From contig KL197740.1 in the NCBI GenBank assembly GCA_000697665.1, positions 379,342 through 443,341 of the forward strand: a stretch of DNA of 64,000 nt, in the 5' to 3' direction. The notes beneath the pieces were generated by a model, which saw nothing but the letters and a program-made list of their open reading frames with translations, did no database searches and had not been told where the DNA came from. A program made the position numbers and the translations under genes. Shown here one piece after another: positions 3,401-58,664 of the stretch (positions are counted from its first letter, which is position 1; each line of letters starts with the position of its first letter). The stretch comes from Jaapia argillacea MUCL 33604. Its lineage: Eukaryota > Basidiomycota > Agaricomycetes > Jaapiales > Jaapiaceae.

Positions 3401-4137
3401 TCGCAAACGGAGGGCTTCGCGGTCAAAACGAATCGCCTCCTCCAGGTCTGCATGGTCACCCTTCTGTTTATAACGTTCCCTATAACCATAGGCCAAACCG
3501 AAGAGTGTGTTGCTCCGATTAGGATGTGGCTCCGGTCGCGAAACGAGCGCTTCCCTATCGAGCTTGAGTGCCTCATCCAGATCAGCCATGTCACCAAGTT
3601 GCCGAAAGCGTGTCCGGAGGTCGATGGCCAAATTGTTGAGCGAGGTACCACGATCGGGATGCAATGGCGGTCGCAAACCGAGGGCTTCACGGTCCAGTTC
3701 GACCGCTTCTTGAAGGTGGGATAGCGTGGAGGCGCGACGAAAATGTGTTTTTAGAGATATGGCCAGATTGGTGAGCGAGTCTGCTCGTTGGGGGTGTCCC
3801 ACCGGCCGCAAAGCCAGCGCTTCGCGGTCAAGTCGGATAGCCTCCTCCAGGTTTCCCAAAACACCTGTATTCCGAAAAGTCGCTGCTCGGGCGTGGAGCT
3901 GGGAAGCTATGGGATCGGGAACTACCTCCTGTTGTGAAATGGCGGCTTGGGGAACTGGCTCGGGCTCTTCATCGATACCTTGCTCTATTAATGGTTCGGG
4001 GTGGTTGGGAGCTGACAGATCGACGCCTCGTCGGATCCATACACGTCGTGCAACGTGACCAATAAAAGCAAAGAAGTTGCGGACCGTCTTGAAGGGGCCT
4101 TTTTTATCTAAAGCCCGTCTTGCTATGGATGTATCCT
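471..4137 (-). CDS. TPR-CHAT protein (caspase-like CHAT domain with TPR array)
   Basis: The protein is a long tetratricopeptide array followed by a CHAT domain (caspase HetF associated with TPRs, clan CD protease fold). About twelve TPR units of roughly 45 residues, of the form DLEEAIxLDREALxLRP..HP.R..SLNNLA..L..RF, run from about 3860 down to 2300. The CHAT domain ends the protein. Its histidine motif is VHFACHG and its cysteine motif is AFLSACQTAAGD, so the His/Cys dyad is present. The C terminus reads through two introns (about 1348-1395 and 676-738) and ends FVHYGL at the stop at 471. The 5' end is unresolved: the frame is open to about 4137 but has no ATG there. A typical acceptor (ATGTAG) sits just upstream, so the start lies in an earlier exon, perhaps within 4140-4450. 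TPR-CHAT proteins are expanded in Agaricomycetes with largely unknown roles. Protease activity is inferred from the dyad only. Confidence 0.88.
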
Positions 4138-28248: not shown

Positions 28249-29094
28249 ATTGGTGAGCAATAATTCCCTATGTGCAAAGGTCCTTTGTTGTCACCTCGTT
28301 ACATAGACTTTTTGTAGACTCTTCGTTTGCCATATTCTGATTTACTTCTGTTGCGCAATATAGTTCCCTCGTTTTGTGTAAGACCTGAAGGGGTGAACCA
28401 CGCAGAAAGGCAATTCATGTTCCCGACTATCTACCAGGTTCGGAAGGGTGAGAGTTTCTGAAGGCGGTTCTGGAATATGGATCTCTGAAACTTGGGGCTC
28501 AGGAACCGACCACAACAGACCACAACGGCGCTCAACCAGGGAGCATCGCAACCGATGAGAATACTGATGTTACAGTCTGTACATCTCATCTAGGCAATAC
28601 GATGGCAGAGAGTGACCCAATGGGCGCCTATGGGATCGGAGGCACCCACAAAGAGCTGGACAGCTGCCATTAGCAGACGGCTGGCTATCGACAGGCTCTT
28701 TATTTTCAAGAAGCCTCGTGTTCCACCAAAAGCTGCGGATCCCAGTCCCGCTAGGCTGGGAAGGTGATGGGGAGGTGGAAAACGAATGTCGACAGTCAAA
28801 GGCGTCGCCGGAGAACTGGAAGAAGTTGAAGAGTCTGAGGACTGCGATAGAGGAAGTGATGGGATTCTTGAGCCCTTGAGGAGCGAGGAGGAGCCCGAGG
28901 CGGAAGATGACGACTACGGGATGGTGAGCAAGAACGTTTCATTGTGACATGTCAAGAAAGTTCTGATGCTCAGAATGCCCGAAGCAACTGTCTCCCACAT
29001 CAATGCATCGCCGTTGGCAGGGTGAATAACGAAAAGGTCCACAAGTTTATATATCCAGAGTGGAGGCAACCGTTCCTCGCAATATTAATCCCCG
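28249..29094. other. Intergenic, no supported gene
   Basis: Short frames occur on both strands. A plus-strand acidic stretch around 28810-28925 (LEEVEESEDCDRGSD) might be an exon fragment, but I found no convincing start, splice sites or relatives. Confidence 0.4.
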
Positions 29095-30045
29095 ATGTCG
29101 ACTCACCCTCGCCTGATACATCCTACGCCCAAGTATCCAGGCATCCATGAAGCGGACGATCATCCACCCCCGTATTCCTCCCCAGCTCCCCCAGACGAGG
29201 GTCCCCCGATCAGTGCTCTAGTGGTTGAAGCTGTCCGAAATCACCCAGCCTCAGGGAGCCACTACTCCTCGTATTCCGTGCCCAATCCTACCGCTGCGCG
29301 GATCCATGACAGTGGCAACTTCCACGAGCCCGTGCTCTTGTTCACGAATCCGACCCCCGTCTATCTATCGAATCAATCCGGCTTCCAGCCTTCCCCGCTT
29401 TCATCCCAGCATTTCTCCAGTTCTTCGCTTGATCCGATAGTTCGCAATTCTTTGCAGCCGCCGTTCGTCCTCCCTCAGCACAACACCTCTTCCTCGTTGT
29501 TATCACCTTCACAACGCCCAACGGCTCCCTCCCACTTCTTCTCAAGGAGGAACCTCATCGTCCTTGCTATAACGGGCGTATTCGTTATTGGCTGGGTGGT
29601 TGGGGGAGTGGTTGGAGGTATCGCTGGCAAACGGCATGTGTCATCCGCCACCCCGGAGAGTCAGACCGTTCTACCATCCAGTAGCGCTGGGATACCAACC
29701 GTTGACACCTCTTCCCCCCTCTCCCCATCACCCATCCCGTCTTCCCAAACCCCGTCCCCCTCCCCCCCTGACCAAACCCCTTCACCCTCTCCCCCTGATC
29801 AACCTCCGTCGCCCACCCCCTCTCACCAAAATCCCCCACCACCCCTTCCTAGTCCAACTCCGCCGCCCGTACCCACCACCCAAACTCCATCACCCATCAC
29901 CAGTAGCAGTTCTTCCTCTTCTCCCGCACCTCCCGCGTCTCAGAGCCAAACCACCCCCCGGGACCCCCTAATAATAACTTCACCGCAGGACGTCAATTGC
30001 CTTTTTCAGTGTCCATCCAACTCTATTTGTACGGCCCCGTGTTAA
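29095..30045 (+). CDS. Single-pass membrane protein, Pro/Ser-rich, with PPPY motif
   Basis: One uninterrupted frame of 316 residues from ATG 29095. There is no signal peptide. Residues 1-150 are Pro/Ser-rich and hold the WW-domain-binding motif in ADDHPPPYSSPAPPDEGP. A Gly-rich membrane helix follows at about 155-178 (NLIVLAITGVFVIGWVVGGV), after the basic SRR. Next comes a long Ser/Pro mucin-like region with PSPSPPDQ repeats, and the protein ends in a short Cys-containing tail (LFQCPSNSICTAPC). By the positive-inside rule the N terminus would be cytosolic and the repeat region outside, probably O-glycosylated. It is paralogous to the gene at 31467 over the N-terminal half and membrane helix. 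No catalytic domain was seen and the function is unknown. Confidence 0.75.
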   Translation: MSTHPRLIHPTPKYPGIHEADDHPPPYSSPAPPDEGPPISALVVEAVRNHPASGSHYSSYSVPNPTAARIHDSGNFHEPVLLFTNPTPVYLSNQSGFQPSPLSSQHFSSSSLDPIVRNSLQPPFVLPQHNTSSSLLSPSQRPTAPSHFFSRRNLIVLAITGVFVIGWVVGGVVGGIAGKRHVSSATPESQTVLPSSSAGIPTVDTSSPLSPSPIPSSQTPSPSPPDQTPSPSPPDQPPSPTPSHQNPPPPLPSPTPPPVPTTQTPSPITSSSSSSSPAPPASQSQTTPRDPLIITSPQDVNCLFQCPSNSICTAPC

Positions 30046-31466
30046 TCCTTTTATTATCCGTTGTGCCCAAGCCATATGTCGGACACTTAGTACATGCGGG
30101 TCATATATCTACGTATGCCCAAAAATGTAATCGTCGATCGAAACAAATATGGTGGACCTTATTGGACAAAATTAAAAATGAGACTCAAATAACCAATGTT
30201 CTCCAGCTTCTACCAGGTCTTGCTGGGTTTTCCCAGAAATTACCAGTTATCAATAAGAGTTTGTTCGATCTCCTAACACCCAACGAACATTTCGTCAAAC
30301 ACTCTCCGAACATTGAAGATCCAGGATGTCCTTTGTCTGTTTGGCTTAGTAATCGATGTTCGGAGGGTGCTTGGAAGCTATTCGTACAAAGACTGGGGCG
30401 CGATCAATCAATCGTTTGGGTGGCATGTGTGGAGCAGTGTTCGGTGTCGAAACGGCGGTTATTGCACCCAGTGACAACCTAATTACCTTGGACCCACCAA
30501 CCAGGGGGTTGGGGTATAATGCTCATTCTTACAGAAGCTATTGTAAATTTTTAGAGAATTTCTGAGGGGTTGAAAGTCTCTGTACACCAATCGCTGTGAG
30601 GTCCACGTTCTTCCACGTTCTACGGGACCATTGAGGATGACCCTTACGGGCCGCCCTCGCCGTGTACAATCAAAGGGTCTACGATAGTAAAATGCACACC
30701 TCGATAACATGCACCGATAAATATCGGTGTTAACCAGCAAAGATCAGTAGTAACTAGTCCATGAGGGCCCGGGGGGATAGCCAGTAATTTCTAGATTGTT
30801 CCAAGAGTACCCCTCTGGCCGAGGAAAAGACACGAATTTTGTCCGAAGGCGACCGTCAAAAACAACAGCCTTCAATGAGCGTGAACTTCAGGCAATACTG
30901 GTGTCCATAAGCGAAGATCAGTGGTAACACTAACTGGTCCATGACGGGGATAACAAATTTTTTCTAAAAATTTCCAAGGTTACCCCTCTCGTCGAGCAAT
31001 AGACACGAATTGTGTCCAAAGGCGACCGTCAAAGACAAGATGCGGTTCTCGATCTATTATTTGATTCTCTTGCACTGGTCCGCCTTTCACTTGCGTAAGA
31101 CTTAAGTGATAGCAAAATTGAAAGGCGCCGATTCTTCACCATCTGCCACGTCGTTTGGTCAGCGCAGGAACGATTCCGTGCCGATGGGTGTCAGGATAGT
31201 TGAAACCCCGGGCCCAACCTCCTCGAGCTCGCAATGTCCGACGCCAAGTGCAACCAAGTTCTCGACCAACCTCGAGCCATGTCAAAGTTGGCCTTTCCTT
31301 CCAGTGGATATACATCAAGTCAAGTTGGACTTTAGAGGCACCATTGTACGCAACTGGTGAGGTATGGACGGGACCTCGACCAATGGATAGTCGCCAAGGC
31401 CGTCCATTCGCCACCAGTTTATAGACCCTAGCCAGAGGTACCCCCGGGTTTGCTTTGCAATGCTTG
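30046..31466. other. Intergenic with a diverged tandem duplication
   Basis: No gene was supported. The first part has a few open stretches without known relatives. The second part contains the direct repeat described at 30725-31050. The promoter of the next paralog lies near 31400. Confidence 0.45.
30725..31050. repeat. Diverged direct repeat, two copies of about 145 bp
   Basis: Copy 1 (about 30733-30868) and copy 2 (about 30910-31045) share strings in the same order: AAGATCAGT, GGTCCATGA or AGTCCATGA, TACCCCTCT, GACACGAATT, GTCC(G/A)AAGGCGACCGTC and AAA(A/G)ACAA. Differences and small indels between them show the duplication is not recent. No coding potential was seen. Confidence 0.7.
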
Positions 31467-32201
31467 ATGTCGACTTACCACCACCTAACAATTTCTACAC
31501 CCAAACTTCCAGTGATCTGCGAAGCCGATGATCGTCCGCCCCCATATTCCTCTCCAGCTCCCCCAGATAGCGAGGGCCCTTCTGTTCGTCCTTTAGTGAC
31601 TGAAGTAGCCCGATCGCGAGACCACCCAGTCTCAGTGAGCCACTATCCGTCGTATCCCCTTCACAATCCCGCCTCTGCGTCGTCGATACATAGTGCCACC
31701 AATTATCACGGCTCGCAGAACGGGCATCCTACCCTCGTGTCTCTGTCGAACCAATCTGGCATCGAGACTTCCCCTCCCTCGTCTCGGCACCTCTCCGGTG
31801 CTTCGTTCGATCCAGTAATCCGGGACGCTTCGCACCCGCCGTTCGTCCGTGAACGAAACTTGTCCTCCTCGTCATTTTCACCTTCACGACACCCCACGGC
31901 GTCCTCTCACTTTTCAAGGAGGACGCTGATTGCTCTTGCTATCGTGGGTGTCTTCATTATTGGTGGGATTGTTGGAGGAGTCGTTGGAACTGTCGTGGGA
32001 AAACAGCATGGGTCATCCGTCGCTACCGCCGCCCCCGCACCACCCTCAGCGCCAGACACGTCCGAGGGCCTCCCAACTGGCGCGCAAACACAGCCTATTG
32101 GCACTTCTTCCGCTTATCCGTCGTTCATCACCCAACCCGTGGCCACATCGTCTTCCAGCTCAGCAGCACGAGCGACATCCGCCATTGGGACCGGCCCGTG
32201 A
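31467..32201 (+). CDS. Single-pass membrane protein, paralog of the 29095 gene
   Basis: One frame of about 244 residues. I use ATG 31467 (MSTYHHLTISTPKLP). An earlier in-frame start would need a non-ATG codon. It shares with the 29095 gene the CEADDRPPPYSSPAPPDSEG segment with its PPPY motif, a SLSNQSG..TSPPSSRHLS block and the SRR-flanked membrane helix LIALAIVGVFIIGGIVGGVV. The C-terminal Ser/Thr/Ala-rich part is shorter and lacks the PSPSPPDQ repeats and the terminal cysteines. This indicates a tandem duplicate with a diverged outer domain. No enzyme domain was seen. Confidence 0.75.
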   Translation: MSTYHHLTISTPKLPVICEADDRPPPYSSPAPPDSEGPSVRPLVTEVARSRDHPVSVSHYPSYPLHNPASASSIHSATNYHGSQNGHPTLVSLSNQSGIETSPPSSRHLSGASFDPVIRDASHPPFVRERNLSSSSFSPSRHPTASSHFSRRTLIALAIVGVFIIGGIVGGVVGTVVGKQHGSSVATAAPAPPSAPDTSEGLPTGAQTQPIGTSSAYPSFITQPVATSSSSSAARATSAIGTGP

Positions 32202-32818: not shown

Positions 32819-33515
32819 ATGTCATCCTCGTATCACGACACCCCCAAACATAACGGCTCATACGACGCCGCCCTTCTCGCCGCCGCCCCCGTCGCAACTC
32901 GCGCTGAGAAGCAGGTAACCCAATTACCAAAACTTCATCATGGGCGCTATCTGACTAAATCTCATTTATTAGGAGGGTTACAATGTCGATTTGTTAGACA
33001 ATGGAAGGCCCAACAGGGCTGCGTCTACCAGTCCTGGTCCCGCTACCGTCCTCACACCCCATCGCTCTGATCCCGAGCTAGCCGCATCGAAGGAGCGTTA
33101 CGCCAATGGACTATCGCCCTCGTCCAGCGCCAAGGTTCCATTTTGGCGGACGACGAAAGGGTTGATCATCCTCGTTGTGGTTGCAATCGTCATCATTGGC
33201 GCGGTAGTGGGAGGTGCTGTTGGTGGGACGGCAGGGAAGAAGAAGAGTACCAACGGCGGAGTTGGCGGTGGTACAAATCCAGGGTCAGCTCCCGACACCT
33301 CATCGGTCGCTTCCCCCTCAGCTTCGATTACCGTGTCTTCGACTGGATCGACTGGATCGACAAGCGTCCCAGAGTTTGCCACTGGCACAACCGCTGGCGC
33401 ATTCAGTAGCATATCCGAGTCTAGTTTGGGACGAACAAGCACAATATCCTCTTCCACGACAACGCCAAATGTAGTCAGTCCCAACCCTACCTCACCATCA
33501 TCCGGGGGTCCTTAG
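32819..33515 (+). CDS. Single-pass membrane protein with Ser/Thr-rich tail
   Basis: Two exons (32819-32914 and 32973-33515) join in phase at QEGYNVDLLDN. The protein starts MSSSYHDTPKHNGSYDAALL, has no signal peptide, and carries a basic stop FWRTTK before the helix GLIILVVVAIVIIGAVVGGA. A Gly/Ser/Thr-rich tail follows. The layout (cytosolic N terminus, helix followed by GGAVGGTAGKKK, Ser/Thr-rich outer tail) matches the two genes before it. The sequence is clearly more distant and lacks the PPPY motif. Unknown function. Confidence 0.72.
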
Positions 33516-34087
33516 GGACGATTGGATTTGTCGAGCCTCTCGTTGTCGACCGTTCTGCTTCAGACGTTCCTCGTCAAGTTACACCGTACTCTCGTAGCAT
33601 GCTTTATCCCCCAATTTCTTCTATCCTGAGCGTTCGTGTTGTTTTGATTTTGGGAGTAATTTACTTGTTTCATATGGTGCGTTTGGATTAGTGAGGTTGG
33701 ATTTGGATTGGATATATTATGGCACAATTTCAGAACTTTTTCCGTGCTGGGACGTGGTGTACCTACCCTATACTGATACATGCATAGTAAGACTCAGAAT
33801 CAACCTTCCTGTGAACTCAGGTATGACCACCAAGGTACAAAGGTATATTTCTGTCAATGAGAGGTTGATTACTCGTAAATATAAATATCAAGGAACACCG
33901 CAGTAGCAGATAGAACTTAGAATTCACAACCTCCGACGACCACGAACCCTCGTATCCAAAGAAGTGCCGACGAGAATGATTATCACCACAATCCCGACAT
34001 CGGCGGAGATGGGTAAGTTCTCTCACCAGACCAAGGACTTCCTGCGTAAAACCAGCACCTCCACCACCGTTCGTGGTCCCTTGGGCG
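33516..34087. other. Convergent spacer, no supported gene
   Basis: 3' ends of the plus-strand trio and the first minus-strand cupredoxin gene face each other here. Nothing else was recognised. Confidence 0.5.
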
Positions 34088-35660
34088 CTAACCACTAGCG
34101 CCCAAACCACCAATGTTCCCAGATGACCCAACTCCCAGATTAGCATGACCCGAAGTACTTCCACCAGCACCGGGATTACCCCCGCGAGCAGCGGCTGGAT
34201 TGGTGTGCTGCGGAGCACCACCACCAACAGGGTTCACAGGAGGACCAGGTACAACACCTTCCTGTCGCAACATCTGCAAAATCTCGGTTGCAATCTCTCT
34301 GACATTCGGATACGCCACACCCATAGCTGGACCAGGCTGTCCATATGCCATAGGTCGGGGTACAAACGACTGTGGATTCTGCACTGGAACCCATTGAGGA
34401 GATGGGGGCCCGCTCATATGGGAAAGCGAAGGGGTATAATGTAAAGATGAATGGCCTGCCGAGTAAACTGATTCCCCGTCATGTGTTGCGCTCCTTGGAG
34501 AAGCCTGGCCCGAGTTCGTGGAGTTATTCCTATTGGGAATAAGAACGGCCTCGCTCCCAACGTAGCTCTTGTTCTCTTCAATCTGCCTTGGGTCCACAGG
34601 CACTTGATTGGTGGCTGAGCTTGGGTTGCTCTGTCGACTAGCGCGCCAGAGGAAGTATGCTAACGTCCCGATGATGGCGAGAACCACGACTCCGCCTATA
34701 ACCCCTCCCACAATCGGCCCCGTCGCAACCTTTTTGGACGAAGATTGGGAGGGGGAGGGTGAAGGCGAAGGCGAGTGGGTTGCCGAAGAAGTTGGTGGGA
34801 TGAAGAATGAAGAGAGGGCCGAGATGGCTGTGGCGTCGGAAGTGGGACTTGCGGTGATGACCACAGGTGTGGGGGTTTGGATGGCGTAGGCTCCTGAGCC
34901 TTGGAGAGTTGGACTAGTATTCGGCTGGTGAATTGTTAATCAGGTGGAGAAGCGGAGGGTAGAGAAGTAAACGTACCGCAGGCGTTCCACTGATGGATTT
35001 CGCAGCTGCGATATAAGTTGACCACATATCATTCGAGGGAGGGTTGATGACCCTAATGATGGATATATGCGCCTAGTTAAGTGCTCTGATCAACACTCGA
35101 TAGTGGGTTGGAACACACCCGACCATCCCAACTGCACAATGCGACTCTGGCCTTGTGCCTTGACAAAAGTACCATATCGCTGCGCTCCAGCAGATCATCA
35201 ACAGAAGGTGTTGTGGTTCTGGAAAGAAGCTCACGAGTGGAACCGTTCGTGAGGACCAAGTCCCATTTCATTGCGGGGGCGCTCAGGTTCGTACCAGGGC
35301 CTACGAGTCCGCTGTTGAACCCGCCTGGCATAGCATAACAAGGGGTTTCGAATGTCGTTTGGGTCACTCCGTGAAGCCTGGTGGGAGAGTTTTGAGTGTA
35401 AGCGCCGGAGGAAATTTTCGGATGGCGGGGTCGGTAGACTCACCCAGCACCGATAATAAACGTTATGGTATCGTTGGTTTGCGCAGAAAGCGTTGGCGGA
35501 TCGTAGAAATGGAGTGAGGTCCCCACCATCACCTGAAGTACAACTACTGTCAGTCGAGCGGGCAAGTAGAGTGGGTTCACATACATACAGTATGGGTTGT
35601 CTGCCCAAGGACAATCAGAACTTGGGCCGACAACAAAGAGAGTCTGAGCAAACGGGGCAT
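34088..35660 (-). CDS. Cupredoxin-ectodomain single-pass membrane protein, copy 1
   Basis: Start at 35660: signal peptide MPRLLRLSLLSAQVLIVLG, then QTTHTVMVGTSLHFYDPPTL and NDTITFIIGAGLHGVTQ. The cupredoxin-like domain keeps the set expected for type-1 copper: His in GLHGVTQ, Cys in IWYFCQG, His in ESHCAVG and Met in VGMVG. A Ser/Thr/Pro stalk with ISALSSFFIPPTSSA leads to the helix PIVGGVIGGVVVLAIIGTLA. A cytosolic tail follows with ENKSYV, SVYSAGHSSLHYTP and NVREIATEILQMLRQEG, then a Gly/Asn-rich end. Four or five short introns join in phase. It belongs to the fungal extracellular serine-rich/cupredoxin-like proteins. Whether it binds copper or acts in redox sensing is unknown. First of three tandem paralogs. 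Confidence 0.85.
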
Positions 35661-36711
35661 GTTGAATCAACGACTGAGGTCCAATCTCCAGTGAAGTCAA
35701 AAAACCGGAGAAGAAGACCAGCGAGCCAAGACAGCGTCGTAACGGTGTCAACGGCCTTTATGAATCGGGGGCGAGGAACAGGCTTTGCCATCTTTGCCAG
35801 GATCTCGTAACTCAGGGACACTGGAATTGAACTCTCCGTAAGCACACAGTAGCCTTCTAATGTCCATTAGGCTATGGGTTAAAGCGCTGGTGCGCCCGGA
35901 ATCAGTGTACCAGAAGGGCGAGGCGTACCATTGTAAGTGGAGACGTATTTTGCAGTTGGATTTTGCTAGGATAACAAGACGGTAATCCCCGCTTGATACA
36001 GGTGGTCGAAAGCAAGGATTGGTCTTGTAAAAGTCGAAATCGTCGTGCCAGACAAGTGCCAGACCGCGCGGGGACAAGACAGCGCTCAGCACTCAGGCTT
36101 GGCTCAGAGGTGTCGTGATCATAGTAAGTCAAGGAAGGTTCAAACTTGGGATTGGCTGAACGTGTGCGCTATTCATCAGATGGATCCACCTGGAGCCTTG
36201 GCGTGCCCTAAGGCAGCCTGGATATCGCTGGGTATCCTTGGCCCTCGACTCCTAGTCGGAGAGTCGAAGGTTCAGCTTGGCGATCCTAGGGGGAGACTCG
36301 GAGCCTGAGTAGCATATGTCATGTTGGGAGCAAGAGCGCCACGTAGAGCGGTATATGCAGACTCCGATCTCCGGGCTGCTGTTCGACAAGTGCCAGTGGC
36401 GTCCGTCCTCTCGTCCGAGTGAGATGTAATATGGCGTGTAAGAACTTGGTAAAAAGTTAACAAACTTATGGTGCAGCAATCCGAGTCGAAGCTTCCCTTG
36501 CTTCGAGACAACTTCACTCACCACCGATGATGCAAAAGTTGGAAACAGTCAAGGGCCTCCAGGCGACTGTACCTGGCAGTGTGGTGGGTGGTACGAGGTA
36601 CTATAGGCCCATTAATTATCTTACATAATCGTCACGAATCCCAAAACACGTTCACTCGTAAGGACATAAAGCATGGACCGGAAACATCCCCCAACCATCG
36701 ACATACTTACA
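35661..36711. other. Intergenic between cupredoxin paralogs 1 and 2
   Basis: No supported gene. A stretch near 35800-35890 looks loosely like a tRNA on the minus strand but fails on stem pairing (see rejected items). It includes the promoter of copy 1 next to 35661. Confidence 0.45.
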
Positions 36712-38423
36712 TCACGAACCAGAATTTGAGGGTAGAAAATGTCCCCGACCGGGAGAGAACCCCGCGAGATGCTGTTGCGAAGAAGGATCCGAGGTCGTAC
36801 CCTCCGTACTACGAGGGCCTGGAATTCGCGGGAGTGGGTGAGGTTTCTCGCCAGACCGACTGCTTCCTGCAGTGCTGGCTGGAGGGCTAACACTGGTAAC
36901 ACCCTCAGCTGGACCAAAACCAGAACTTCCCACATGAGTAGCGGTACTGGTGGATGGGTCGCTACCGGCCACGGTGGTAGCAGGAGGTCCAGCAGGCGCA
37001 AGACCTTCCTCTCGCAACAACTGTATGATTTCCGTGGCTATCTCTTTGACGTTGGGGTACGCAGCTCCAGGTGGGAGAGCAGCATGTCCAGGCGGCGGCA
37101 CTACATAGTCAGATGACGGTCTAGGAGCAAATCCGGCAGGGATTCGTGTTGGACCAAACTGTGGCGAAGACGGCGCTTGTGTCTGGGTATGCGATGGGGC
37201 ATAATGCAAAGATGGTTGAGCGGTTGAGTAAACCGATTCCCCGTCATGCCCGGCACTCCTGGAGGGAGGCTGCCCAGTGCTTGTGGGATAATTGGTACCC
37301 GGAACGTAGACGTTGCCGTTGTGTATGTAACCCTTGTTCTCTCCCATTTGCCTCGGGTCGAAAGGAGCTTGATTTTGGTATGGAGTAGCTCGTCTTGGGT
37401 CACTCTTCCGGTGAGCGCGCCAGAGGAAGAAGGACAAGACCCCGATGACTCCGATAACAGCGACTCCTCCTATGACCCCTCCCACGATGGGACCCGCAGC
37501 GACCTTGTTTGATGAAGATTGTGTGACAGAGGGCGAGGGAGTTGCGGAGGAAGTGGCTGGGATGAAAAATGATGAAAGGGCCGAAATAGCTGAAGGATCG
37601 GCAGTTGGTTGGGTGGAAATGATTACGGGTGTCGGAGTTTGGACAGCGTAAGCGCCTGAACCTTGAAGAACAGGAACCGTTGAAGGCTGATAATATGTTG
37701 GATACATGAATGGTTACACTGGTGTGACGGCGTAGACTTACGACAGGCGTCCCGCTGACAGATTTCGCAGCCGAAATATACGAGGACCACATATCATTTG
37801 ATGGTGGGTTGATAACCCTGTCACAATTCTGATAAGAATGGTACCAAAGGCCAGGACCAGTCAAACATACCCAACCATCCCAGCCGCACAATGCGACAAT
37901 GGTCTCGTGCCCGGACAGAAGTACCATATCGCTTCACAAGTAGGAATCAGTGTTGTAGCGCCTGCATAAGCATCTAGAAAGCAGCTCACGAGTTGATCCA
38001 TTGGAAACGATCAAATTCCACTGGAAGCTTGAAGCCGTAAGGTTCGTCCCCGGGCCTATAAGACCACTGCTGAATCCCCCTGGCATAGCGAAACATGGGG
38101 CTTCGAATGTCGTCTGGGTGACACCATGTAGCCTGAGGAGCGAACCTACGTAAGCGCCCAATAACAAGGGGAGATCTTCGAGATGTAGAGACTTACCCCG
38201 CGCCAAAAATAAACGTTATGGTGTCATTGACTTGCGCAGAAACGGTTGGGGGGTCGTAGAAGTCAAGTGAGGTCCCGACCAATACCTGAATAAACGCGCC
38301 TGTCAGACCATGTCCCTGGGCGCTTTATTCAAGTAATTTGAGACTCACAGTATGGGTTGTCTGCCCAAATACAGTACAGATTTGGGCAAAGAAGGACGAG
38401 AGCGCGACGAAAAGCAACACCAT
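36712..38423 (-). CDS. Cupredoxin-ectodomain single-pass membrane protein, copy 2
   Basis: Start at 38423: signal peptide MVLLFVALSSFFAQICTVFG, then QTTHTVLVGTSLDFYDPPTV. Copper-type ligands are retained: His in GAGLHGVTQ, Cys in IWYFCPG, His in LSHCAAG and Met in GMVG. The stalk contains AISALSSFFIPATSSATPSP and the helix is PIVGGVIGGVAVIGVIGVLS. The cytosolic tail shows ENKGYIHNGNVYVPG, SVYSTAQPSLHYAPS and NVKEIATEIIQLLREEG, followed by a Ser/Thr/Pro-rich end to the stop at 36712. It has the same exon layout as copy 1 and is the closest relative of it in the array. The function is unknown beyond the ligand-based guess of copper or redox binding. Confidence 0.85.
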
Positions 38424-40107
38424 GTTCAAGCTCAAGAGTTGGCCAAGGACAACTGTAACTCCACTATCTTGGCTTCACCTTGGCCTGGAGTTGGGAGGAA
38501 GGCAAGATCCCGAAGAATGGAAAAGGGATGGATGCATCGTGTTACATACAACGTTCACTCATTGAACATTGAATGCTTCGATGCACGCCTTGCCCTTCTT
38601 GACAGGGTCATGCGATTGGTAGTTTGAAGAGATTGGAAATGCTTTACGATAAGCGTTCGAAAGCCGCCTAAAGCTCCCATCAAGGACAAGTTGATCCTGG
38701 TTTGATATGGACAGTCTGGGAGGAAGTACCGTCAGCGGGACCAACATCGGGAGTAAGTAGCTTGCACTAACGCTCGATTTCGCTGATATATTTCAATGGC
38801 CAAATCGTCTGGAACGATATTATTCTCTGGGTCCACACTTGGCAAATTTCTATTGTTCCGTGGTTCGATGAGAGCTTAAGGACAAGGTTCAAACCATTCC
38901 CTTGGTTGATTCAAGTCAAGCTTCGGCTTGATAACACACTGGCAGTGTGTTTTATGCATCAAGCCCTGGCCCACGGCCATATTCCCGCTACTTTAGTAGT
39001 GGGTCTTGTACCGTCCTATACTTTACAGGCGCTCCGCCAATTTTTCACTCGATTACAAAGCTGAGACATTTCTTTTGTCTGAGCTCCAAAACTCAAGGGT
39101 GTTTCCGTGGCCATCCTCATCAACGACGATTGTCTGTGGTCACTAACAACCATCCTGTTACCCCCACTCATGTCAAATCTCTGTGTATTGCACCCGTCTC
39201 ATGGCGTCGACATCCTCCCCGCAGCCCAACACTTGTTGTTGATCAGCTTCCCCACAGCCACAACATTCCTCGTTCGATCTCCTCCGAGTCCGCAGTCATT
39301 TCCTCCGTATCTAGTCCTGTTGTTGTTTGCGCGCTGGAAGGCATATATCGGTCAACCTCAGGCTTTCCCCTTGCCGTGGCTAAATTGCTAGGAGCGGACA
39401 TCTTGTTGGGCCGCGACTGGTTCGATTTGTGTTGTCCTTCATTCGAGTGTCTCATTCAAGTCTCCCAAGTAGACCAACTAAGTGAACCCTTCCTGGACCA
39501 GTTGCCATGTGCTTGTCTCCCCTTCACCCTTTCCTGCAGGATCACCCGCCTCCTTTTTTCCACCTGCCGGTCGGGTTTCATACTTCATCGTAGTTAGCGT
39601 AAGTTGAACTACTGTCGTTGTATACTATTCGTTCGTGTGCTATAAGAATTTATTGTCGGTGCCGCCTTCTACTTGCTGTTGTTAACTTGTTCAAGAGAGA
39701 ACCTGGTATGCATTCCCCTGATTTTCTTCATCATGTCAACATGAAATTGCTATATTTGTGAACGCTGGTAGCGGGCTCTTGCCGCACATGCGGCCTTTTG
39801 TGTTATATTGTACCATAGTTTCCTTTCCGTTGCGGTTATTTGCTGTTCCAATAGCGGAGCAAAATTCAAGGCGTTACGGGTGAATGCATGCCCAACGCTC
39901 GATGTTTTCAAACTCTGCCAATGGTAAGGAACGCGCAGTTTCGTTCGTGGAGAATAAGACATACGACAAGTTTAGTACGATATTGCCATAACCCATCCCC
40001 ACATACCAACCCATGCAAAGTCCGACCCAACCAAGATAATAAGGAAAGAGATCGCAAAGGAGCAAAAGAGCATTGTCCACACAAATAATCACCAAACTCC
40101 CCAAACC
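38424..40107. other. Intergenic with repeat and possible retroelement fragment
   Basis: This region holds copy B of the dispersed repeat (38982-39112). An open plus-strand frame (to 39597) has no ATG start. Near 39390-39430 it contains LLGADILLGRDWFDL, a D-x-L-L-G-x-D-W pattern reminiscent of protease-domain remnants in fungal retroelement proteins. The rest of the frame is low-information sequence. I treat it as a possible transposon relic, not a gene. Confidence 0.4.
38982..39112 (+). repeat. Dispersed repeat, copy B
   Basis: This is the second copy of the repeat at 335-470, in opposite orientation and about 38.6 kb away. Similarity begins at CCCGCTACTTTAGTAGTGGG and fades after GGGTGTTTCCGTG. 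The copies differ by scattered substitutions and short indels. Confidence 0.8.
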
Positions 40108-41774
40108 TCACGCAGAATAAGAAGGTGGGTACGGCCCCGGACCAGGCGAGAACATCCTCTGCGGAACAGGAGCATGCACCGCCAAATGTTGATCCGAACT
40201 AGCCACCTCCGACTGAGCGTCCCTAATCTCAGGTACATTCGGCAAACTTCTATCCCCAGGTCGGCCACTCACTCCACCCGATCCCGCTCCCCCAGCAGGT
40301 GGAGTAGCAGCAGCAGCTGTACCGAGTCCCTCCTGCCTCAACATCTGCACAACCTCACTAGCAATGTCCCTGATATTCGGGACGTTCGAGTATTCAGATC
40401 CAGGTGAACCGGGATATCCCTGAGGAGGCTTTGAAGAGATGGACGACATCTGGACTGGTACAAGGGCTGGAGAACCTGGAGGGCTAAATTGCTGGTAATG
40501 TTGTTGCATTTGGGGGATAGGTGGTGCTTGATGAGGATCGTAATGTAATGGAGGTTGTTGTGTCGAGTAGATTGAATCTCGATTATAGTAACCTGGTCCA
40601 CCGGGAGAAGTAGGGTTTGTGGTCGTGGTCGTGTAGGTAGAGTCCCTGACTGGAACAGCGCCGGAGGTAACGAATCCCTTGTTTTCGTCCATAGGCGTAG
40701 GGTCGAAAGTTCTTTGACCGCCGTACGGAGTCGGAGTCACCTCGCTCTTACGTTGAGCTCGCCATAACAGGAAAGATAGGACACCTATGATGGAGAGGAC
40801 GACTACACCACCCACTACGCCTCCCACAATCGCGCCGATTGGAGCCTTCTTGGACGCAGAATGGGTGGCAGATGGTGACGGAGAGGAGGTGGGTGGGATG
40901 AAGAATGAGGAGAGGGCTGAGATTGCCGTCGCATCTGAGGTGGGTTTGGTGGAGATCACAACTGGGGTAGGGGTCTGAATTGCGTAGGCTCCAACACCTT
41001 GGAGAGCTGGGGTGGTAGTTGGCTATATGCGGTCTTATCAGCGCCGGTAGGGAGAGCTTCGGACGGGATCGAAGAAGCTTACCGCAGGTGTTCCGGTAAC
41101 TGATTTGGCAGCTGCGATATATGATGACCACATATCATTCGAAGGAGGGTTGATCACTCTATTCCGAGGTCATTGAATTCAGTCAAAGATCGTGAGGATG
41201 GGAGTTAGATGAGGTACATACCCAACCATCCCGGCCGCACAATGAGATTCTGGTCTCGAGTTTTGACAGAAGAACCAGATGGCTAGGAGAAAAAAATCAA
41301 CGATGTGGATTCATATCCAGACAAAAGCGCTTACGGTTTGAGCCATCAGTGAGGACCAAGTCCCATTGTAACGTTGGTGCTGAAGAGTTGGAACCTGGTC
41401 CGACAAGACCGCTATTGAAACCTCCGGGGAGAGCTACACATGGTGTCGAGAAGGACGACTGGGTGACACCATGGATGCTGATCGTATGCACATGAGCGAG
41501 TGGGTCCCCAGATAGTCGTGCGCATAATAAAATAACTCACCCTGCTGCAAACACAAACGTGATTGTGTCGTTGACTTGGGCGGATAGCGTTGGTGGATCA
41601 TAAAAAATCAAGGACGTCCCAATGTAAACCTAGAAACCGAATCCCAGTCAAAATTCCTCCCGAGATAAGACTGTTTGAAGAAATGAGACTCACAGTGTGG
41701 GTCGTCTGCCCCAAGACGGACAAAATATGGGCGGAAAATGCCAACGACCACAGCGCGAGAGACTTTGGCGACAT
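40108..41774 (-). CDS. Cupredoxin-ectodomain single-pass membrane protein, copy 3
   Basis: Start at 41774: MSPKSLALWSLAFSAHILSV as signal peptide, then GQTTHTVYIGTSLIFYDPPT. The domain has His in IHGVTQSSF, a conserved Cys in TPCVALPGG, Cys in IWFFCQN, His in ESHCAAG and Met in GMVG, so the type-1 copper set looks intact. The stalk AISALSSFFIPPTSSPSPSA is followed by the helix GAIVGGVVGGVVVLSIIGVL and WRAQRKS. The cytosolic tail has MDENKGFVTSGAVPV, DSIYSTQQPPLHYDP and NIRDIASEVVQMLRQEGLG, and ends YPPSYSA at 40108. It is the most diverged of the three copies but keeps every motif. Unknown function. Confidence 0.85.
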
Positions 41775-47817: not shown

Positions 47818-50800
47818 TAAGGCTCATGAGTTTCGTCGGGTGGGTGCGTCTCAGTAAGAGGGGCAATGGGGTCTTCCGTTGAGAGGGCCGGTGGATCTAG
47901 AAGGGAGGTCAGCCTACAGGTGCACGAATGGGATGCCACGACTCACCATTAGATTCAAGCTTTTCCTCAGATTCTGCAGGCAGCGAAGCCCCGTTTTGTT
48001 CAGGAATATCGGCTTTCTGAGTCGACAGGTCCTTCTTTGAGATATGTGAACCTGGAGAGGTCAAATTGTTAATCAAAGGGCCCATTACCCAGATGAGACG
48101 CAAGTCCTGACCTTCAGTGAGAGGGATGGACGATTCAACAACCTCGATCGCAGGTTCATCAGCAACATTCACGACAGCAGTCGGTTCCTCGGCTGGCGAA
48201 TCTTCTACCTTTGCAGCGTCGTGTTCCGGATCTTCAGGAACAACCACGCTCGTGAGCTCCTCCACCTCTGGGTCCTCGGCAGCTGGAGCATCCTGCACAT
48301 GCTCTTCGGTAGTTGGAGCGGGAAACGACTCTGGTTGCTCTACAATTTCAGGCTCCACTTCCGCATGCACGACAGGAGAGCCAGGAGCCACGGCCTCCGC
48401 AACTGGTTCGTCAACTTCAGTTGAAGGGTCTGCAGCTTGAGGTTCAACAACAGGTGCAAGTTCCGCCGTGGGCTGATCAATCTCGGGTTGCATACTGGAT
48501 ATCTTGGGCTCGGGAACAACGTCGGCTTCTGTATGGGGCTGATCTACGAGATCAGGTACTTCCGCAACCGCGGGAGACGATTCGGGCGTGGTGACATGAT
48601 CAGGTGCTTCCTGGACTACCTCAGAAGCAGATTGCTCTTCGGTAACTGACGCAGGGGGTGAGGATTTCGTGATGGGGGTTGGTTGTGTCGACTCGATGAG
48701 AGAATCATCCACAGAAGCGCCGTGATCCACGGGTTCCGCAGGAATGGTCAACTCCTCTGCTGGGGGAACTACAGAGTCTACGAAGGTGACCTCGGGCTCA
48801 ACATGCGGAACTACTCTCTCCACAAGGGCTTCCTCGAGTTGAGGCTCAGGAACGGATGACGCTGTGTCGGTGGGCTGGGGAACATTGAGGTCCGATTGCG
48901 CGGGGAAGATTTCACGAGCGGAGATGGTCTCCGATTCCTCCTCGTTGTCTGGAACAGGAGGGGCTGCGGGTATCCCGGGAGCTTCAGTAGTTGGGGCTGG
49001 TTCCTCTTCCGATTCCGCCACAGGGGTCGAGGCTTCTGCGAGGAGAACACCAGTCGGTTCGACTAGGACCTCAGAAGCAACAATACTCTCCACGGGTACA
49101 GGGGCGGGGACAGAATCGTCGGCCTGACGGTAAGGAAGTGTTCAGAAGGTTAGAAACGAAATATGAATGATGACTCACATATGCGGCAGATTCAACTGCT
49201 GAAACTTGTTCAGGTTCTTGCGCAACTTCGATATGCTCGACCTCAGCTTGTTCAAGCAAGTGGGCGACGGCGACGGGTTCGCTCGTCGACAATGCAACTT
49301 GGGGGCCAGGTGTCTCTCCGGCAAGAACGACACTCTCGGGAGCGGGAGGCAAACTCTCACCATGTTTGTCGGTAGGAACTGGCAAGTGGGTGTGAACTGG
49401 AATTTCGACCTTGGCCGTCTCAGTTGGCGTCGATTCCTGGATGGGTGCCGGTGTTTCCTGGGTAGGCGCTACTTCCTGGACAGGTACAGTGGGGACCGGT
49501 TCCTCGACTGGTTCAGGGAGTAGAACTTTCAGGGTGGATTCGGGGGGTGCTACCTCCTGGACTACGGGGGATACTGATTCTTGGACGGGTTCAGAAGCCA
49601 CAGTCGCATCTGGTTGAACAGGTTGGACGACCTCTGCTTCTACAACTTGCGCGACCGGTGTCACCTCAGGTTCGGATGTAAGCAAGGGTGCTACCTCCGG
49701 TACGGATGGGGGAACTGGCGCAGGGGAAGGTTCCTCGCTCTCCACCACCAAAGCTGTCGCAGCGGCAGCCGTTGCAACAACTGCAGTACTAGTTCTAACT
49801 GCAGCCGCTTTCCCACTCTCTTGTGACGAAGGTGCTGGGGCGTTTACACTCACGGGCTTCTCTTCTTCCTCAGCCAGAATTTCACCCATCTCCCCAACTC
49901 TCGGTGACACCGCAAGTTTATCCTTCTTCTTCGAACTAGTTTTGCTATCCTGACTTCCAAAGAGGTGGAAACGCTTGAAAGTTGAGCTCTTCCTATTGTC
50001 GATGGACGGTCGTGGGGATGTAGCCCTGACAGGCGAAACAGGTGTTTCCACCACAGGCGGGGGAGGTGGGACTGTATAAGCGTGTTCGATCACAAGCCAA
50101 TTCACGGGTTTGTTATCAGGGGTTTGCAGACCAGACAGATTTCGAAGTTGGCAAACGACGAAGCTCGGCCATGTGGAAGAGATCGGGTCAAGCAAGGCGT
50201 CACTCCAGAAATCGACAAAAGCCTCGTCCAACTGAATGAGCGTAATGCTCGCGACCTTCGCTGGCTTCGGTATCGAAATCGGGATGGGAGACATGGCGGG
50301 AGGGGTACTCGCAGCGTAGTCTATAGAAGACCGTCGGCTATGACCTGGCGAAGGCCTTCGTTTCCTACTAGATTTACGACTTGGGAACGCAGACGGAGGA
50401 GCGGTTTTCTCCACGTCGGTGTCGAAGAGTGTAGCTGCGAGACTATTTCCAGTTCCCAATTCTCCGAAACCGGATGTAGAGAATTGTAGCCAATCCGTCG
50501 GGGAGGAAGGGGAGGTAGGAGAAGTAGGAGAGCTTGTAACCGTACCACTTCCGTTGACATGTCCGTTGGAGGAGCGCCTTTCGCTGGGATCACCCATGGA
50601 AGACGATCGTCTCCGTTTAGGTTGAGGGGCAGAGATGAGGACAACCGGAGGTGAAGAGAAGGACGAAAATGTGGGAGATAGTGGGGCATCCTTGTCCATT
50701 AAATCACGGGGAAGGAGGGAGAAAAGACGTGTGGTTTCATCGGCAAACACCTTGGGCAGCGCAAAGTTATCACCAGTCTCTTGCTCGCCCTCCTGAATGG

Positions 50801-52241
50801 GCGTAGCGGCCTTCTTGATAGCATCCCACAAAGGATCGTATTCGCCTTGTTCAGCCCCGGATTCGGACTTGAACGCATCGGCAATGATTCGAAGCGGGTC
50901 CTTCTTGGATTTGGGACGCGCCTCGAAGGCGAGCTCGTTCTCGATGCGGACGAAAAGGGCGTCATATTTTCGAGTTGTGAACCGAGGTCGAGGAAGGAAC
51001 TCTTCCCCTGTTTGGCCTTTTGAATACGGGTAATGGGTGACGAGTTCCGTCAAGCGTTTAGGCATGGAATGACTCGCGGCTTCGTCCCTAGTGGAGCGGA
51101 ACTCGGTCAACGTGCAAAAGAGTGAAAGAGCTGAACACACGTACCTGATCCTGGCGAGGAACAGATGCTCCAATATTCGGCCAGCTCTTTCCCAGCGTGC
51201 ATAAAACGTATTCCAGTCATCAGCGTGTTCGGTTCTACTGGCCGTGAGGAGCCAGAGCCCGATAAACTTGGTCAACTTGCTTCCCGAAATGCCGTTGGTT
51301 TCTGCATGAGACGCGAGGGAGGAGATTATGTCCAACAATGTTGAAAGGAGTTGGGCGTGAGCCGGTGGTAAGAGCGGGATTAATTCATTCGTGAACGCCT
51401 TGGGTGGGTAGGCAGATTTTCGCTCCGCTTCGAGGAAAGTGGTGTACCATAACCAATTGGGGGATGTCTTGCCGAATGAGTCTCCTTCGATTCTCAAATG
51501 GCGTAAACCCCATCGTAGAACAGCAGCAACGTCATGAGGAGACCGAGCGTCTGCTGTTTCGCTTTCAAAGGCGGACTTGGCGACGACGGGTGAGATTGGT
51601 GTGGAGGGGGTATCCGTGGGGGTTGGGGGAGAGATGGAGAGAATGAAAAGAGAGATTAATTTGCGTTGTACGTCAGGAGATGCAGAGTACCAGTGAGGGT
51701 GCATGATGCCGAGGGTTTCCAGGCCTGGACGAAATATGAGAGAAGGGGACAGGGGAAGCTGGATAGACTCACCTCGCGCGATGATGGCCTGAGAGCAGGC
51801 TTGGATCAGAGTCAAGGCCTCCACAGGACTCAATCTCCGTTCCCCAATTACGGCATCGCTCAGCAATGAACGACCCTCGGAGTCAGCCTCGAAAACTGCT
51901 CCGAGCGTCCGAGAACTTTCTTCCTTGAGGCCAGGGAGGTTCAACGACAGATGGGGAGCCTCGACTACTTGCTTCTGCGACCCAAGAGGAGGAGATACTG
52001 GTCGAGAACGGCTCCTGAACAACGACGGCAAAACTCCATCCTTTTCCTTCTCCTTGGCCTTTTCCTTCTCTTTGGGAGGTTGGAAATTGGGGATGGAGGG
52101 TGACGACGGTGGGGAAATTGCTTCGAATTTCCCCTCTAATAACGAAGGTTGTGAAGTGCGTTTGGACGTTCGGGGAGACTCCTTGTCGTCCCTATTACGT
52201 CCAAAGACTTTCGTTTGAACTTTGGCAAGAAACGAGGGCAT
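47818..52241 (-). CDS. Msb1/Mug8-domain morphogenesis protein with long acidic tail
   Basis: Start at 52241: MPSFLAKVQTKVFGRNRDDK, a basic Ser-rich N terminus. From about residue 130 the Msb1-Mug8 region (formerly DUF1708, RhoGAP-like fold) follows, with LSPVEALTLIQACSQAIIAR, LETLGIMHPHWYSASPDVQR, LLPPAHAQLLSTLLDIISSL and GSKLTKFIGLWLL. FDTDVEK and a second folded stretch (LIQLDEAFVDFWSDALLDPI) come next. From about 49900 downwards the protein becomes a very long Glu/Val/Pro/Ala-rich tail. The last intron joins EKLESN to DPPALSTEDPIAPL, and the protein ends THPPDETHEP at 47818. Yeast Msb1 links Cdc42/Rho1 signalling to bud growth. A role in polarity here is inferred from the domain. The tail is probably disordered. 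Confidence 0.85.
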
Positions 52242-52487
52242 AGCGTGCCCTGATAAATGTACAAGGCTGTAATCTCTGACTGTCAATCTCGCATGGACGA
52301 GCCGAATCGGAGAAAAACGCACCGTCAAGACGTGGGGGTATCCGTTGTTCGCCACGAGCAAAGCTGGTGGTCGATGGTTGAACCCGAATTGGCTAGAATT
52401 CTCAGACGCGTCTGCCGCGTGGCTTCCATCATTCGCTTAGCTTTCCCGCTTGCTTGCTCTCCTCGTCAGATACCATCGTCGATGCAC

Positions 52488-55048: not shown

Positions 55049-58000
55049 CTATGTAAGGGCGAGCTCCTCGACATAGAGCGCCCGCGCTAGAGGTCCGCTC
55101 CGGTCAATAATACCCCACCGCTTCCCTGTGTTGTCATCGGGCACCCTCCCGACAAGACACTGGACTGTTGACATATCCACAACATCCATTTGCCCGAAGT
55201 TGGAGTAGTAGTGGATGTCGAGATCGTTGTCGCTTTCGATCAGCTTGCAAGAGCGAATAGCGGCGAGAAAATGGATTGCTGGTTTGTCGAGATTGAGGTT
55301 CTGGGATGGCGGAAGACGGATAACAAAGACGTGTTGTAGTTGACCAAAAAATGTCTTCGCCACAAGCTTCGGGGCGATGTTCTTCTTCTTTGCATGGACA
55401 TCGACATAGGCTTCGTACTGCGAGAATAGACATCCGTTAGTTAACTTCAGGTGGTATCAGCAAATGTATTGTTTGAACATACCCGGATGAAGCTGGCGTC
55501 GCGCCTATCCTCGCCGATCGCAGTCATTGATGAGGCATGCATCACATCCCCACCAAAAAGCCTCCGGACTTTACCCCATTGCTCAATCCTAGCTGCATCC
55601 AAGTGTGGTCGGATTTTCGCTGGTGTTGTTGAGTATGCTGTAACCAAGCAACCTATGACTTGCGCAAGAAGACCGGAGTCAACGGGTGCGACTCGACGTG
55701 GTGGCATCAGAACACAATGTGGATCTGAATAGAAAACTTAGGCGCATGAAGAAAGGAATAATAAAATAGCCATTACTCACATGCTACGTCCGAAAACTCT
55801 CCTCGGCAAAGATCTGCGGTGCGAGGTGCTTTGAGAGATAGCTCTTGCCTCAAGTTGTAAACGAGTTTAATTTGAACGAGGCGCGCTGAGTGGAGAACGT
55901 GGCGGTCGATGCAAGCATAGGGGAATCTGCGGCTTTTGATTGCAGGTTGGAGGTGGCCGCAGTAACGTTCCATCGGGAATGCCCACGATGTCCAAACAGG
56001 TCCACTGGCCTCAATGCTGTCGGCAATGTGAAGGAGGGCATGGATAGTGAGCGGACACGCGGACAGCCGAGATGGTTGACCCTGGTAATAAAAGCTGGAA
56101 AAAATAGTAGGGAATCAACAAACACGCCATAAGGCTCTAGCATAATATGCCGTACCTCTCGTATTTCTCCACCCAGCCAATAAAACCTTCTCGGATGTGA
56201 GAAATATCTTCGGTGGTCAGCTCAAACTGGAGGCAGAGTCGAAGGAGCTTGACGAGTTCAACAAAGTGGTTGTAGTACTTCGGTTGCTTGAACTTGCGAT
56301 GGAGAAGAACTGGTGCGATGTATTGTGTCCAAAATGACCACGCATCAGCGCTGCATTGGGATTTATTGACCGCGATATCAGGAAGTCGTGGGCCATACAC
56401 GTATGGTATTGTTGAACCAGATTGCATCGTCGCGGCACCAATTCCTTCCCACACAGCAGTTGTGAGCTCGTACTGCTCCCGGCCCTGATCCAAGTCTTTA
56501 AACTCGCCGGTCCATAACGCAATGAGATTCTTGATTAGATTCTCCCATATGAGGTGCATGAAGTCATATGGAAATGATCTCGGAAATGACAGACTGTGTA
56601 AGACACTAAGGAGGGGGATGCCTTTGATCCCATATGTCTTCGCAAGGTTGTCTGCTTCGGTAGCAGTTGCCGCGAACTGAACTTGACGGGCTTGCAGGAG
56701 GAACTTGTCATGTGTTCGAAGCGGAAGGTTTCGTGGATCATAGAGTTTGATGGAAGAGGGATTCTTGCGGACAGTTGGGTGGCGAGATCTGTCAAGAGGC
56801 ACATAATGTGTCGTAGCATGAGAATCAGGCACTCGAAGTCCAAGAATCTTGCAGAGTCGACATGGGGAAATCCCATTGTGCCCCTTCATGCGCATGAGTA
56901 ACGAGACGGCAGGAATGTCCCCCGAAACCATGATAAGGTAGGCATGTAGTTTAAAGACGGCTCGGGACAAGGCATCCCATGCAGTGATCCCGATCGCGAG
57001 GCGGAGGAGGTCCATGATCAGCGGCCAGAGGAACGAATCTAAATCGAGGGGTTTTTTCGGACCAGGGATGACTCCAAAGGCAATGATATTGTCGATGTGG
57101 AAGCGTTCTTCTGGGGCGAGGTTGTAGTTATAGCCGATGAGTGGCCATGCCGTTTTCTTTCGACGCTTGAATGGGGCAAATCCGTCCGTTGACAAGCCAA
57201 GTGCGATGTCACGATCGTCCTCGAAATAGGTATAGGGGAGTTCTTTATCCCCTACTTGAACCTTCTTTCCCTTGAGTGACCGAAAGTGGTGTGAGTCGAA
57301 GACATCTCGCACAACTCCGGGGGTATGCACATGTTCTTTGGCACGATAAGCCAGTCGTTTGGCACTCGAAAGATTGGCGTGCATGGCTGCGAGACGAGGA
57401 GCGGGAGGGATGTAGCTGAAGGTGTTTCTTGGTTTCTCGTTTGCGTTTAGTCGAGGCTCGGAGCAGTGGGGGCATTCCACTAGTTCAGCATGTGGGCCAA
57501 CGAAGCAGATGCAGGAATTGACGCAGCAGTCGTACTTCACAGGCTTGACACCCGATAAGAACGCAGCACGCGAGTATACCTCTTCAAGGCTTGGCAGAGG
57601 TTCCGATGGGAAAACGTAGGGTAGTTTGTTGAAGTCTTTCGTCGTTAGATTGGATGAAACTTTGAGTGCGAACACACGCATCATCGCGAGATCAGATTCT
57701 GACAAGTTTTCACCTACGAAATTGTCAGCCAATGGGAGAACCTGATGCAAAGATCTGAACATACCCAAGTCAGCGGCTTGACGAATGAAGTCTTCGTTCA
57801 GAGTGTCCCAAGCCGACAGATATGGATTATTGCTCTCGTCAAATTCTGACTCGCCGTCAGAAACGTCGCTATCCGAGTCCGAGTCCTCCTCGCCTTCCTC
57901 TTCGTCATCACTCTCCTCGTAATATTCCTCCACCGTGGCCTTGTACCGAAACTCCTTCGAACCTAGGATATCACCCAGCTCAATCTCAGAGCCATCCACA

Positions 58001-58329
58001 CCTGCCTCCAAGTCTACCACCCCACCACTGATGATATCTCCGTCATGCTCCGGCTCACATTCAGTCAATCCAATTCTCGATGTTACTCCCTCCGACCCTG
58101 AATCATCTACGAGCTCATCCGAATGGGAACTCAGGCCAGGACTCGAGCCTCGGAACTCAGTTCGGAGTCGCTTGTATGGTCTCTGACTGTGTTCCGAGAT
58201 TGTAACACCAAGTCGTTGTGCTGCAGCCGCCTTCACGTTTATACGGGCCTTTCCGTCTTGGTGTCGTTTGTCTGTCTTGAGCGAGACCATCTCACCACAC
58301 CCACAACTACACAGGCTTTTGTTTGCCAT
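55049..58329 (-). CDS. Tnp2-family (CACTA) transposase
   Basis: Start at 58329: MANKSLCSCGCGEMVSLKTD, then a long acidic region (EEYYEESDDEEEGEEDSDSD). The Tnp2 part has the zinc-finger-like YDCCVNSCICFVGPHAEL with CPHCSEPR, SLSTDGFAPF-type ALGLSTDGFAPFKRRKKTAW, MKGHNGISPCRLCKI and FPYDFMHLIWENLIKNLIAL. An intron near 56090-56150 joins KYE to SFYYQGQPSRLSACPLTIHA. The next exons read FPMERYCGHLQPAIKSRRFP and, after further introns, MDVVDMSTVQCLVGRVPDDN, ending at 55049. CPLTIHALLHI and MERYCG are hallmarks of basidiomycete Tnp2 proteins. It cuts and joins the CACTA ends. All exons are open, so the gene may be functional. About 1,060 residues. Confidence 0.88.
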
Positions 58330-58664
58330 ACTTCTGAAGGATCAACTGATTATGAGCACCAAGATGCGAAATCAACAACGGAAACTCACATGTCAATGGG
58401 TGGGAAGGGGAGATTCGATCAGTGTTTCGACCAAGGTGAGGAGTGGGGGGGTTGAGATGGAGGGCCTCGGGACAGCAGACAGTAGTGTAGGATAGCCAAA
58501 TCAATATATAGTGAGTTTCGTAGTGTACAAGATGGCTGTCGGCGGGGGATAGTGAACCGTGAGAATCTTAACTTCGCGGACTCATACTTGTGCAAATTTT
58601 CATTCACGTCCCTTGCTCAACCTCAACCACCTCATCAAAGACCAGCCAACCCACTCTCGTTATC
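58330..58664. promoter_or_regulatory. Bidirectional promoter of the two transposon genes
   Basis: 335 bp separate the divergent start codons of the transposase and the accessory gene. Both promoters must lie here. No other feature was seen. Confidence 0.6.

Follow-up and report, generated by a model that had tools for sequence, protein, structure and literature searches.

Cupredoxins outside the laccases are common in fungi and largely unexplained. Among well-described members of the fold, plastocyanin and pseudoazurin are soluble single-domain carriers with a Cys-His spacing shorter than the seven residues found in the array described here. Plant phytocyanins such as umecyanin and uclacyanin are GPI-anchored or secreted, carry a further Cys immediately behind the second His with an upstream Cys as its partner, and have no tail of the type reported below. 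The family of SwissProt entry P0DN32 is presumably of the fungal GPI-anchored cupredoxin, or 'extracellular serine-rich protein', kind. That entry is named in an excerpt of PMC9138800; excerpts of the same paper and of PMC6234650 and PMC11965168 annotate fungal cupredoxins as secreted or GPI-anchored. The excerpt of PMC6234650 concerns a protein of unknown function that combines a cupredoxin domain with a secretion signal and is co-expressed with a manganese peroxidase. Among the open-licence literature matches listed, none presents a transmembrane, tail-bearing fungal cupredoxin in its title or the start of its abstract; some deal with multicopper oxidases, a different kind of protein.

The window analyzed here is a 64,000-nucleotide stretch at the end of contig C32 of Jaapia argillacea, and the genome searched comprises 43.7 Mb in 95 contigs. 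Spliced gene models bear out an array of three adjacent minus-strand paralogs: gene A (40108..41774, 454 residues, stop codon just after 40111), gene B (36712..38423, 472 residues) and gene C (34088..35660, 425 residues). The sequence-only reading had placed the array at 33817-41774; its upper end stands, and its lower end moves to 34088, where gene C stops. Each gene consists of six exons separated by five GT-AG introns of 52–66 nt, and the lengths of exons 2–5 (89, 143, 61 and 76 nt) are identical in all three. The encoded proteins share one order of parts, with leader and topology read from the sequence: the leader precedes the cupredoxin domain, a Ser/Thr/Pro-rich stem comes next, and a hydrophobic segment with basic residues behind it leads into the tail.

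The leader, a cupredoxin domain of the form H...C-x(4-9)-HC-x2-GM, a second conserved, paired Cys and a Ser/Thr-rich stretch behind the domain are all shared with the fungal GPI-anchored kind. That kind ends in a GPI-like stretch; the array proteins instead continue through a membrane segment into a tail of 187–237 residues. With plant phytocyanins, they share the extra Cys directly behind the second His and its upstream Cys partner. Their four ligands align in register with those of plastocyanin, and pseudoazurin is the best profile match, whereas neither of these carriers has a stem, a membrane helix or a tail.

Synonymous divergence between the paralogs over the ectodomain is high (dS 1.1–2.4), and the duplications that formed the array are therefore old. 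Across all region-by-pair comparisons, dS lies between 0.70 and 3.21 in 25 of 30 cells and is saturated, beyond correction, in the other five. Values this high rule out recent duplication as the source of the shared tail motifs. The array appears to consist of three copies of a divergent fungal cupredoxin that arose by old tandem duplications.

Several other frames surround the array. On the plus strand, frames 29089-30045, 31425-32201 and 32973-33515 resemble another tandem group of single-pass proteins, in which a basic part is followed by a GGVVGG-type hydrophobic segment and then by a Ser/Thr/Pro-rich part; none of the three has a Pfam match. On the minus strand, Pfam identifies an Msb1/Mug8-domain frame (49071-52436), a DNA-transposon frame with Transposase_21 (tnp2) (56137-58341) and a large TPR-repeat frame (1187-4135). 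The yeast relative of the Msb1/Mug8-domain frame is a polarity and wall-integrity scaffold, and large TPR-repeat proteins of this kind are expanded in mushroom fungi. The transposase frame and the gene structure point to a fungus of the mushroom class.

The claim that all three proteins keep the four type-1 copper ligands (His, Cys, His, Met) holds. In each, the ligands are carried by an 'HGVTQ' element and a C-x7-H-C-x2-G-M block, located by alignment and motif and, for gene C, also by a PDB match. The ligands are His59, Cys110, His118 and Met123 in gene A (41227..41473, minus strand, exons 3–4), His57, Cys108, His116 and Met121 in gene B (37876..38128, minus strand), and His56, Cys107, His115 and Met120 in gene C (35124..35373, minus strand). 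A PDB search with one array ectodomain matched plastocyanin (E 0.0033), and the four ligands of the two proteins fall in register. We also built a profile from nine cupredoxin domains, the three of the array and six from other loci of the genome. The ligands occur in the right order and register in all three array proteins and in all six other domains, and they are invariant across the nine together with a Cys pair, one member of which directly follows the second His. The best match of this profile was pseudoazurin, with a whole-sequence E of 6.6e-5. The search is weaker than this value implies: the stretch spanning the domain alone gives E 0.026 with the Cys out of register, many of the matched entries align with the first third only, and from E 0.077 upward antibody chains are among the matches. 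Umecyanin was a weak match (E 0.28).

No Pfam family exceeded the cut-off in any of the three array proteins, and none of them matched Copper-bind (PF00127) at E values up to 1. A search of the genome for PF00127 likewise returned no match, despite the cupredoxins present there, and matched in 5 of 14 control genomes; too great a distance from the model, or the shortness of the exons, may explain the lack of a match here. The copper site thus rests on distant homology, with the ligands in register, and at this level a type-1 copper domain is supported. Nonsynonymous divergence of the ectodomain between the paralogs is low (dN 0.11–0.17). As judged from the sequence, the ectodomain very probably binds copper. 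The intact ligand set would also fit surface proteins that store copper or hand it to an uptake transporter, a role for which a position at the membrane would be suitable. Nothing in the tail or in the neighborhood points to a transporter (among nine neighboring frames, Pfam named four, none of them a transporter), and we consider copper delivery very improbable.

The relationship of the array to other cupredoxins of this fungus was examined by searching the genome with the ectodomain, which revealed at least five further cupredoxin loci, one each on contigs C2, C7 and C8 and two on C5. Four of these five outside loci (C2, C7 and both on C5) end, as judged by eye, in a short hydrophobic GPI-like segment and have no tail. 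By eye, the loci on C2, C7 and C8 (L051, L052 and L054) each contain two tandem cupredoxin domains, probably within one gene apiece. Between the array ectodomains and the six domains on C2, C7 and C8, identity is 30–41%, compared with 49–62% within those six. This difference in identity, together with the GPI-like ends elsewhere, indicates that the array belongs to the known fungal cupredoxin kind as a branch that is old and divergent and whose anchor has changed. No relatives of the ectodomain were detected in prokaryote genomes or viral contigs, nor relatives of the tail in viral contigs; such absence is expected for a fungal family and is no evidence of rarity among fungi.

The part of the proteins between the copper domain and the membrane was left out of the sequence-only reading. 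Its conserved core is an extracellular stem of 41 residues, found on the minus strand at 40882..41004 in gene A, 37546..37668 in gene B (coordinates counted by hand) and 34784..34906 in gene C, and in each case marked by linker dN and by a genome search in which the array genes were the only matches. The linker containing the stem changes as slowly as the copper domain (dN 0.12–0.18 between paralogs; 75–80% identity over 56–58 aligned codons). Such slow change is unusual for a Ser/Thr-rich linker.

A single membrane helix had been proposed for each protein, and hydropathy agrees: all three have a 21-residue peak past residue 40 with a mean Kyte-Doolittle value of 2.3–2.6, at 40777..40839 in gene A, 37426..37488 in gene B and 34652..34714 in gene C (minus strand), the last also appearing as a long helix in a structure model. 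The segment diverges with dN of 0.18–0.27 between paralogs and the stretch just inside the membrane with dN of 0.27–0.68. The two sub-threshold Pfam matches, TM_ErbB1 to the membrane segment and TM_PetC to the stem, were both in protein C. With a membrane segment, a long tail beyond it and, as judged by sequence, no secreted or GPI-type C-terminal end, the proteins conform to the earlier proposal that they are membrane proteins rather than secreted ones. We hold a type I topology to be very likely.

The same kind of anchor occurs elsewhere in the genome. Other single-pass frames possess a similar GGVVGG-type membrane segment, so the anchor type of the array is ordinary in this genome; by eye, we take the outer parts of these frames to be aspartic-protease-like or galactose/glyoxal-oxidase-like. 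A search with the membrane segment plus the tail returned ten places, three in the array and seven weak ones (E 0.0018–0.24), of which three, on C19, C42 and C17, extend into the tail. The tail by itself found the array and one outside match at E 1.4, and the tail helix found the three array genes alone. A degenerate DNA pattern of the helix core matched seven times, three of these being the array; the pattern read backwards matched four times, which places the other four matches at chance level.

Three short tail motifs had been described. The first, ENK(G/S)(Y/F), is present in all three proteins as noted: ENKGF at 40672..40686 in gene A, ENKGY at 37327..37341 in gene B and ENKSY at 34562..34576 in gene C, all on the minus strand. 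The second is likewise present in all three (minus strand), as SIYS-x5-LHYDP in gene A (40534..40575), SVYS-x5-LHYAP in gene B (37195..37236) and SVYS-x5-LHYTP in gene C (34430..34471), with five residues between YS and LHY in every case and not the four originally given. The third, a helix of the form N(V/I)(R/K)(E/D)IA(T/S)E(I/V).Q(M/L)LR.EG, occurs in each protein as described, as NIRDIASEVVQMLRQEG in gene A (40327..40377), NVKEIATEIIQLLREEG in gene B (37003..37053) and NVREIATEILQMLRQEG in gene C (34256..34306), again on the minus strand; regional dN and window shuffles bear on all three copies, and a structure model on that of gene C. Gene A contains, in addition, half of a second copy of the helix at 40204-40239 (counted by hand; NVPNIRDIASEV versus NVPEIRDAQSEV), with a score reached by none of 500 shuffles. 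No second copy was found in genes B and C (p 0.36–0.88).

The motifs were said to be conserved while the spacers drift, and this proved true of the helix and less clearly so of the other two. In this comparison, limited to three sequences of one array, the helix diverges with dN of 0.14–0.24 between paralogs, close to the copper domain, the two spacers with dN of 0.53–1.48 and the tail beyond the helix with dN of 0.72–0.88. Motif 1 (0.20–0.33) and motif 2 (0.19–0.52) are intermediate between helix and spacers. In the B–C pair, dN/dS of motif 2 is 0.27, equal to that of the spacers (0.27–0.30), and in the A–C pair, motifs 1 and 2 give 0.46–0.53. Because the region borders were drawn after the alignment had been seen, we ran shuffles. 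The invariant columns, 38 of 152 in the tail, are not significantly clustered (p 0.31–0.76 for the summed top three windows of 8–20 columns). When BLOSUM weights are applied to all columns, the three described blocks rank highest at window sizes of 14 and 18, with joint p from 0 of 3000 to 0.012. When ungapped columns only are used at these two sizes, joint p is 0.008–0.049 and the second block moves past LHY; the helix alone reaches p 0.03 at 18 ungapped columns. Windows of 22 columns give joint p of 0.003–0.008, and windows of 10 are nonsignificant (0.057–0.16). Several window sizes were tried and these p values are uncorrected. Thus, conservation of the tail helix appears fairly well supported and that of the two short motifs modestly so.

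These results bear on the possibility that the proteins are plain membrane-anchored surface electron carriers or wall proteins, in which the helix would serve only trafficking or dimerization and the short motifs would be due to chance or composition. The nonsignificant clustering of exact identities agrees with this, as do the GGVVGG-type anchors borne elsewhere by other outer parts and the annotation of published fungal cupredoxins, in the excerpts cited, as secreted or GPI-anchored (PMC6234650, PMC9138800, PMC11965168). Motif 2 points the same way: when a rough pattern was used to select ten other single-pass frames, the S.YS core was present in three, and a single-pass frame on C19, missed by that pattern, has S.YS followed by AYAP, so that the core of this motif is not specific. 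Against a plain carrier stand the dN of the helix, near that of the copper domain, the significant joint clustering in BLOSUM windows of 14–22 columns, and the absence of ENK, and likewise of a helix-like pattern, from every one of the ten frames. Overall, we regard a plain carrier as a real possibility, though a doubtful one.

The tail had been described as disordered-looking. AlphaFold was given the exon-6 protein of gene C, a contiguous reading, along with its two paralogs, and the resulting gene C model, with a mean pLDDT of 45, agrees with that description, the constrained helix lying within the disordered part. It contains two helices of at least four residues and is otherwise unstructured except for a three-residue turn. 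The first helix is the membrane helix (residues 69–98, blocks of pLDDT 63–78) and the second is the tail helix (residues 208–221, blocks of pLDDT about 49–56), which has a hydrophobic moment of 0.52–0.56. With low confidence, the model therefore suggests that the tail is disordered apart from a single short amphipathic helix.

The proteins had been put forward as copper- or redox-linked surface receptors, in which the state of the copper site would be signaled through a single helix to a partner bound at the tail. The overall build, from leader and outer domain through the membrane segment to a long tail, suits a receptor, as does the constraint on both the stem and the tail helix. However, the tail has no Pfam domain above the cut-off, a single helix offers no shown route for a redox signal, and conserved cytosolic tails also serve sorting and anchoring. 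We consider this reading unlikely. The broader proposal of a transmembrane cupredoxin receptor family of mushroom-forming fungi, in which the site would sense copper or the extracellular redox state and relay this through stem and tail helix to a dedicated cytosolic partner, is in our estimation more unlikely still. The term 'receptor' exceeds the evidence, and a tethered copper or electron-transfer protein with a docking tail is the more economical reading.

We accordingly favor, with moderate confidence, a tethered copper or electron-transfer protein docked inside the cell by its tail. A membrane helix and a disordered tail would have taken the place of the usual GPI-type end. The outer domain would bind copper and either pass single electrons or hold copper at the face between plasma membrane and wall, and the stem may set the distance of this domain or itself engage in contacts. 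Inside the cell, the amphipathic tail helix, perhaps together with the two short motifs, would bind an adaptor, a scaffold or a sorting machine of the cytosol, and the protein would thereby be placed at particular sites or recycled. That the tail has a docking or sorting role of some form seems reasonably probable.

Thus, what appears to be new at this locus is a membrane-spanning, tail-bearing subfamily of a known cupredoxin kind. If the tail is absent in other species, the case reduces to an ordinary lineage-specific swap of anchor. The membrane-spanning form with its constrained inner helix would provide a handle for finding a partner within the cell and thereby for testing the role of surface copper proteins in a fungus, with the conserved stem as a second target.
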